Of a DNA stretch of 32,194 bases, positions 14,694-16,059 are shown in pieces. Numbering within the stretch: the first letter of the stretch is position 1; every line of letters starts with the position of its first letter. Under the pieces are notes generated by a model. The model searched no databases, was not told where the DNA came from, and saw nothing but the letters and a program-made list of their open reading frames with translations. The position numbers and the translations under genes are program-made. Source of the stretch: Candidatus Woesearchaeota archaeon (lineage in GTDB: Archaea > Nanobdellota > Nanobdellia > SCGC-AAA011-G17 > JACPNG01); NCBI GenBank assembly GCA_018303365.1, contig JAGVYI010000015.1:1-32194 (forward strand). Direction: 5' to 3'.

Positions 14694-15764
14694 TTAGCGA
14701 ACAAGGTCAATGCCAAGTTCGCTGCTCATTCGTACTGCTTGGGCACTGGGTCTTTTGTGGTCAACCTTGCCAAGGACATAAGGTGACTGGACGCCTGTGA
14801 CAATGGTCATCACGCGCATTTTGCCTTTCATATCCTCAGATATGCGTGCACCCCAGATAACCGTAGCCTCTTGATCCAAGGCTTCGGTGATCATCTCGCC
14901 TGCTTGGCTTACTTCGTCAAGAGTGAGGTCTGCACCACCTGTAATGTGGATGAGTGCACCGCTTGCTCCTTGATAGCTTACATCAAGAAGAGGATTTGAA
15001 AGTGCCCTTCTGACAGATTCCTCAACACGGTTTTCACTTGTTGACTCCCCGATACCTATGACAGACACATCGCCGTTGGCCATAATCGCCTTTACATCTG
15101 CATAGTCAAGGTTAACTAAGGACGGAACAGCAATAATCTCGACAATCCCCTTTATCATTGTGCTGATAAGTTCATTTGCAACAGCAAAAGCCTGTTCAAT
15201 AGGAAGGTTGCCTGCAATCTGCACAAGGCGGTTGTTATCAATAACAATAACAGTATCGCAAATATTGCGGAGTTGCTGGAGTCCAATCTCAGCCTTGTCA
15301 ATACGTGCGCGCTCTATATCAAAAGGCATAGTAACAGTACCAATGACAATAGAGCCAGTTTCACGTGCAACTTGGGCAACAATTGGTGCTGCTCCTGTTC
15401 CTGTACCACCTCCAAGCCCTGCGGTAATAAAAACCATGTCAGAGCCACGGATAGCTTCTTTAAGGTCATACAGGCTCTCATTTGCAGCTTCAGCCCCAAC
15501 TTTAGGATAGCCGCCGGCACCAAGCCCACGAGTAAGATCACGACCAATAAGTATTTTTTTATCAGCTTCAACAATATCAAGGTGTTGTTTATCAGTATTC
15601 AGGGCAATAATCTCGGCACCTTGAACACCCTTCTTAAAAAGCCAGTTTGTGGCATTACATCCTCCCCCACCACATCCAACAACTTTAATGTTTGCCCGAC
15701 CAACCTCAACCTGTGGTTGATTGGTCCTTGCAGATTCAATCGCATTCTGTACGATAAATTCCAT
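14694..15764 (-). CDS. ftsZ: Cell-division GTPase FtsZ
   Basis: A 356-residue tubulin homologue that polymerises at the division site. The nucleotide-binding start [14 protein letters not shown] (28-41), the tubulin signature GGGTGTG (118-124) and the catalytic T7 loop NLDYADV (218-224) are all intact, so GTP binding and polymer-linked hydrolysis are expected. The protein stops right after the C-terminal FtsZ domain ([11 protein letters not shown]) with only a very short tail, leaving little room for a bacterial-style conserved C-terminal peptide. SepF (28144) is the likely membrane anchor. Translation begins at a strong GAAGGAGGGG ribosome-binding site six nucleotides before the ATG, unlike the leaderless neighbours. 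A TATA box lies at 15821-15832. Confidence 0.97.
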
Positions 15765-15780: not shown

Positions 15781-15820
15781 GGGTTTTGTCTTTTTGCTTA
15801 TTGGTATACTCGAAGACAAT

Positions 15821-15832
15821 AATCTTTATATC
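15821..15832 (-). promoter_or_regulatory. TATA box of ftsZ
   Basis: Minus-strand GATATAAAGATT predicts transcription start near 15798 and a leader of about 35 nt, consistent with the use of a ribosome-binding site. Confidence 0.45.
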
Positions 15833-15865
15833 ATACTTCGAACACTACCTTTTTTAGAAGGAGTT

Positions 15866-15996
15866 AAACATTGCCCAAAAAACTCTTTCAAGAAAACATA
15901 TAAAAAACTATTTTACCCAATAAATACAAATTGTAAAGCTCGTTCATAACAACGTTTTTGCCCAAAACGTTGGAAGTTTTATTTGCCCAATAAAAC
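15866..15996. repeat. Four copies of a TTTRCCCAA-type repeat in the ftsZ-gatD intergenic region
   Basis: Cores at 15872 (ATTGCCCAAAA), 15914 (TTTACCCAATAAA), 15959 (TTTTGCCCAAAA) and 15984 (TTTGCCCAATAAA) share a T-rich left arm, T-R-CCC centre and A-rich right arm. Spacings are 42, 45 and 25 bp. Each copy sits inside an inverted repeat, so it could be an operator array or the loops of RNA hairpins. The 325-bp stretch 15765-16089 contains no convincing gene; apart from these repeats it holds the ftsZ and gatD promoters. Confidence 0.75.
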
Positions 15997-16006
15997 CTCA
16001 ATGAAC
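15942..16006. other. Predicted three-way-junction structure (possible ncRNA or regulatory element)
   Basis: A closing helix GTTCAT/ATGAAC (15942-15947 with 16001-16006) encloses two perfect hairpins. One has 9 bp, CAACGTTTT/AAAACGTTG (15950-15972); the other has 8 bp, GTTTTATT/AATAAAAC (15976-15996). Both have the same five-base loop, TGCCC on the plus strand or GGGCA on the minus strand. A third hairpin of 9 bp with one G-T pair (15857-15889) has TTGCCCA in its loop. Possible minus-strand TATA elements lie near 16011-16045, so transcription towards ftsZ is conceivable. Strand and expression are unknown. Confidence 0.5.
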
Positions 16007-16059
16007 ATTTTCTTATAATTAATTTATTTAGTATTTTAAAAAAGTATTTAAATGTTATC

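Follow-up and report, generated by a model that had tools for sequence, protein, structure and literature searches.

The stretch of DNA analyzed here (the window, 32,194 nucleotides, from a genome of 702 kb in 22 contigs) carries ftsZ and gatD as divergent genes, and the region between them contains four copies of a short C-rich core, TGCCC in three cases and TACCC in one, at the four positions given in the original prediction (Table 1). Folding of the plus strand with a folding program placed the third and fourth copies in hairpins of 9 and 8 bp with the same five-base loop, enclosed both of them in a 6-bp helix, and returned around the first copy a 9-bp stem containing one G-T pair, all as had been predicted from the letters. 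This G-T is a pair on the plus strand only and becomes A-C on the ftsZ strand. The second copy, the TACCC variant, lies in a hairpin of 4 bp at most. The region folded with a z-score of -3.55 on the plus strand, where none of 200 shuffled sequences folded equally well, and of -2.22 on the minus strand, and of the four occurrences of the pattern TTTRCCCAAWA in the genome of 702 kb, three are inside the element. Taken with the comparisons below, these repeats and their fold are almost certainly parts of a conserved structured RNA encoded on the plus strand, rather than an array of operators.

Table 1 Features of the ftsZ-gatD region in window coordinates
Feature	Position	Strand	Basis
ftsZ, conserved divergent neighbour	14694..15764	-	
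BRE/TATA promoter of the RNA (ACAATAATCTTTATAT), TATA at 15825-15831	15816..15831	+	TATA-to-UUAGAA spacing in homologous loci; partial dyad symmetry
Putative noncoding RNA gene, about 177 nt, ends inferred	15854..16030	+	promoter spacing, fold, covariation, U-rich end
Conserved 5' motif UUAGAA, probable transcription start	15854..15859	+	spacing from TATA in homologous loci
5' hairpin H1, stem 15857-15865/15881-15889, loop core UGCCC 15872-15876	15857..15889	+	folding; corresponding 5' hairpin in family f1 relatives
Second core, variant UACCC, in linker, weakly paired	15914..15918	+	sequence
Helix P2 (15942-15947/16001-16006) around two hairpins, forming a three-way junction	15942..16006	+	folding
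Hairpin, 9-bp stem 15950-15958/15964-15972, loop UGCCC 15959-15963	15950..15972	+	folding; equivalent CGCCAA hairpins covary
Hairpin, 8-bp stem 15976-15983/15989-15996, loop UGCCC 15984-15988	15976..15996	+	folding; equivalent CGCCAA hairpins covary
U-rich tail, probable archaeal termination region	16007..16030	+	inferred from sequence
gatD, downstream in the window, not in every RNA-bearing genome	16090..17424	+	

In 87 of 101 homologous loci, the TATA box and the conserved UUAGAA motif were 28-30 nt apart, which would set the start of the RNA at about 15854 in the window. The TATA region itself (15812-15832 and its homologues) is partly palindromic, with a dyad complementarity of 0.46 against a median of 0.33, a slight hint that one bidirectional promoter may be common to ftsZ and the RNA. 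A small-protein gene was considered and rejected, as closed frames within the first 150 nt were short, the longest having a median of 13 and a maximum of 42 amino acids. Across genomes, the RNA is about 150-200 nt long and has two to five hairpins with an identical loop, while the linker and the number of hairpins differ among homologues; helices equivalent to P2, of other sequence, were seen in relatives compared by eye.

Conservation and covariation of the hairpins

The region upstream of ftsZ was compared in 95 genomes of the order, mostly metagenome bins and representing 20 families, together with 27 further named loci. The plus strand of the 95 regions contained 223 instances of the cores CGCCA, GCCCA and GCCCG. 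Dinucleotide shuffles gave 15 ± 3.7, and the reversed motif occurred 20 times. The core motif was picked after inspection of the loci and has its independent support in the class-wide search with a hairpin model described below. At least one core was present in 82 of the 95 genomes and at least three in 46. Stems of at least 6 bp surrounded 53% of the core copies, compared to 9-10% when arms were swapped between copies, and the loop was exactly CGCCAA in 91 of 140 hairpins, with the remainder mainly GCCC.

Covariation was measured on 150 distinct 24-mers selected by CGCCAA alone and not by pairing. Paired cells made up 74.7% of this set compared to 43.9 ± 1.2% after shuffling, 488 cells had changed on both sides compared to 206 ± 12, and two-sided variation was found at all nine stem pairs. 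The covariation score was 0.722, against 0.217 for shuffled sequences and 0.10-0.33 with the partners slid by one to three columns. These cells count sequences and not independent events, so kinship inflates the figures, yet the slid controls retain the same kinship and score far below the true register. Both the repeats and the stems are conserved upstream of ftsZ in relatives, and since stem sequences vary between copies and genomes while complementarity stays, the stems are kept as structure and not as sequence. A pairing test in a fixed register on the ftsZ strand had given a weak signal only, because GCCC and CGCC loops differ in the register of their stems, and the test was redone with a free register.

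This pattern bears on the two readings originally offered for the locus, a structured RNA and an operator array, of which the first was borne out by the covarying stems. A repeated core in the intergenic region between divergent genes is what one would expect of DNA operators at which a regulator of ftsZ and gatD binds. However, the arms of hairpins chosen by their loops alone vary at every position, with no conserved half sites, and still remain complementary, which an operator would not require; the preference for G-U wobble over A-C (below), the frequent absence of gatD as a neighbour and the position of the repeats inside the presumed transcribed region also disfavour operators, which we regard as extremely improbable.

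The place of the RNA is occupied by other forms in some lineages. Loops were degenerate or different in families f2, f8 and f10 and at several dphB-side loci. In families f8, f14, f15 and f20, a UGA-UUNN-AUGAU loop replaces the C-rich loop in the 5' hairpin (5' part of the RNA at L236, L178, L193, L205, L206, L212, L215, L217 and L223); this loop resembles a box D'/C' kink-loop and is a possible candidate site for L7Ae. Upstream of ftsZ, L090, L092, L100 and L101 have no CGCC loops and carry other sequence with TATA-like elements, partly common to them (GGTCTCCAAA...), with no match in Rfam, and L114, L132 and L134 have short repeats, AGGCGG and TTGGTT, at the position of the RNA, possibly as diverged forms of it.

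Strand of the RNA and its association with ftsZ

Non-Watson-Crick pairs inside the stems, read in plus-strand letters, were G-U in 35 cases and A-C in 7, against a background of 5108:4897, and an earlier, smaller wobble test had the same direction. The 160 nt from the start motif folded with a mean z-score of -2.53 on the plus strand and -0.92 on the minus strand in 86 genomes, and the plus strand folded better relative to its own shuffles in 92% of them. The wobble bias, the folding bias and the spacing between TATA and UUAGAA together argue strongly for an RNA transcribed from the plus strand, opposite to ftsZ. Because the RNA would lie on this strand, the displayed loop is not GGGCA, as had been supposed, and reads UGCCC in the window and CGCCAA in most relatives.

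The same data weigh on antisense control, in which a long ftsZ leader starting from a promoter beyond the RNA would overlap it, and the two transcripts would meet through their complementary loops. TATA-like sequences directed towards ftsZ are present beyond the RNA, and the loop complements UUGGCG (of CGCCAA) and UUGGGC (of GCCCAA) both keep UUGG on the ftsZ strand, which is a U-turn (YUNR) like those employed by antisense systems of plasmids. However, a search for ftsZ-direction promoters beyond the RNA gave no sharp peak in start-site spacing, the wobble and folding biases place the selected structure on the plus strand, and complementary strands need no loop identity among copies, whereas the loops observed are concerted (below), making antisense control improbable.

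The RNA is followed by gatD in the window and in many relatives, and by dphB or a DNA-ligase-like gene in others; at L059, L115, L124 and L126 the neighbouring gene runs in the same direction as ftsZ, with its end facing the RNA. This changing neighbourhood indicates that the RNA is not a leader of gatD. A long 5' leader, riboswitch-like or protein-responsive, would suit the window, where gatD follows on the same strand, but the gene on that side varies among genomes and at these four loci faces the RNA, and this explanation is very unlikely. The RNA very probably represents an independent gene tied to ftsZ and not, as first proposed, an element controlling both ftsZ and gatD; gatD is often not its neighbour.

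The occurrence of the RNA was followed by searches with a model of a single hairpin. In 16 whole genomes, significant matches were found essentially only at the ftsZ locus; two isolated matches elsewhere (contig C30 of G042 and contig C18 of G001) were dismissed as chance-like on reading. In a first class-wide set, 17 of the 20 fetched matches adjoined ftsZ, some of these loci having contributed to the model. A second set comprised 20 genomes with one match each, all on contigs outside those used for the model. Here 17 matches were on the strand opposite to ftsZ, at about 80-250 nt upstream of the gene, and one further contig, the eighteenth, ended at the corresponding place next to dphB. All matches in a sample of the phylum fell inside the class, the number of genomes sampled from other classes being uncertain. 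Extra ftsZ copies at L070, L072 and L080 are not accompanied by the RNA and have instead a frame of about 35 residues (MRKKFLRFxENLE...) just upstream. In G000 (contig C20, 29212-29409), a second ftsZ was found as a fragment that contains an internal stop codon, and relatives have an intact second, more distant ftsZ.

Concerted loops and a possible trans-acting partner

Loop types were counted in genomes with at least two well-paired cores. The loops were all CGCC in 45 genomes and all GCCC in 19, and only one genome was mixed, compared to 32.7 expected if loops were dealt at random (minimum of 19 in 1000 shuffles). The copies in one genome have unrelated stems, yet a common loop. Common descent within families explains this in part, and both kinds of loop are present within families f1, f7, f12 and f16. 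That the loops of one genome switch together strongly suggests that a single trans-acting partner reads all loops of an RNA.

Such a partner could itself be an RNA. A trans-acting small RNA, with C-rich loops that base-pair with G-rich sites in target RNAs in the manner of the C-rich-loop sRNAs of Gram-positive bacteria, would account for several C-rich single-stranded loops per RNA, and a shared RNA target would impose concerted change. Against this, the complements UUGGCG and UUGGGC within ftsZ are not matched to the loop type, only 0-2 loop complements were found among the 366 gene starts of the fetched loci, and the usual ribosome-binding motifs, GGAGG and GGGGG, are not complements of the core, so that base pairing of this kind seems unlikely.

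We favor instead, at a probability of roughly 0.55 for the explanation as a whole, a stand-alone, multivalent RNA that presents its loops to an RNA-binding protein. The RNA would be transcribed in the direction away from ftsZ by a promoter immediately upstream of it. The hairpins into which it folds, two to five in number, all present one loop, which is CGCCAA in most genomes but GCCC in the genome of the window, and every loop would be read by the one partner. This partner is most likely a protein, several copies of which could be bound at once, so that the RNA would titrate or assemble it; granting a structured plus-strand RNA and an independent gene, a titrating or assembling mechanism is slightly better than an even bet. 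Other transcripts with the same hairpin were not found by the model in the 16 genomes, a search from which short or unstructured sites would escape, leaving titration with no visible competing targets. The conserved adjacency to ftsZ is a weak indication that the RNA is expressed together with FtsZ and acts around cell division. Extended to the class, the proposal would be of an archaeal RNA that assembles several copies of a loop-binding protein and links this protein to cell division based on FtsZ, the loop co-evolving with the protein through the switches from CGCC to GCCC, which we offer as speculation that is rather doubtful as it stands.

Comparison with known RNAs and significance

No match above the gathering threshold of Rfam 15 was obtained in the window region or at 19 related loci, the best weak match in the window being an unrelated S15 leader (E = 5.5), and no RNA of comparable kind was found in the open-access literature, in agreement with the statement in the original prediction that no archaeal element of this form had been described. 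The closest designs are bacterial. The protein-titrating RNAs CsrB and RsmZ likewise have several hairpins with the same short loop motif, but the repeated loop is GGA there and CGCCAA or GCCC here, and the RNA described here is archaeal and fixed next to ftsZ. None of 40 relatives' genomes encodes CsrA, for which the control was positive in Escherichia coli, Bacillus subtilis and Thermotoga maritima. The 6C RNA of actinobacteria also has two or more hairpins with C-rich loops but differs in loop sequence, host, hairpin number and setting, and the Rfam scans gave no match to it here. RNAIII and LhrC, sRNAs with several C-rich loops in one RNA, are similar in that respect; in the ftsZ-side RNA, unlike in these, the loop is not complementary to ribosome-binding sites, and its complements are not enriched at gene starts. 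Plasmid copy-control antisense RNAs have UUGGCG/CGCCAA loops, and the likeness extends to the hexanucleotide, its place in a hairpin loop and the U-turn in the complement, but the RNA of the present locus is chromosomal, has several loop copies and has no sharp opposing promoter signal.

Knowledge of regulatory RNA is scant for these archaea, which have small genomes and are mostly uncultured. Bacteria are known to have RNAs built on this plan of repeated loops; in archaea, and with a link to ftsZ, such an RNA would be a novelty. If the proposal is correct, a structured RNA lies beside a gene central to division across a whole class, and the identity of its loops is switched concertedly from lineage to lineage. 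These switches would provide a natural handle in the search for the partner, as a protein or RNA changing together with the loop.
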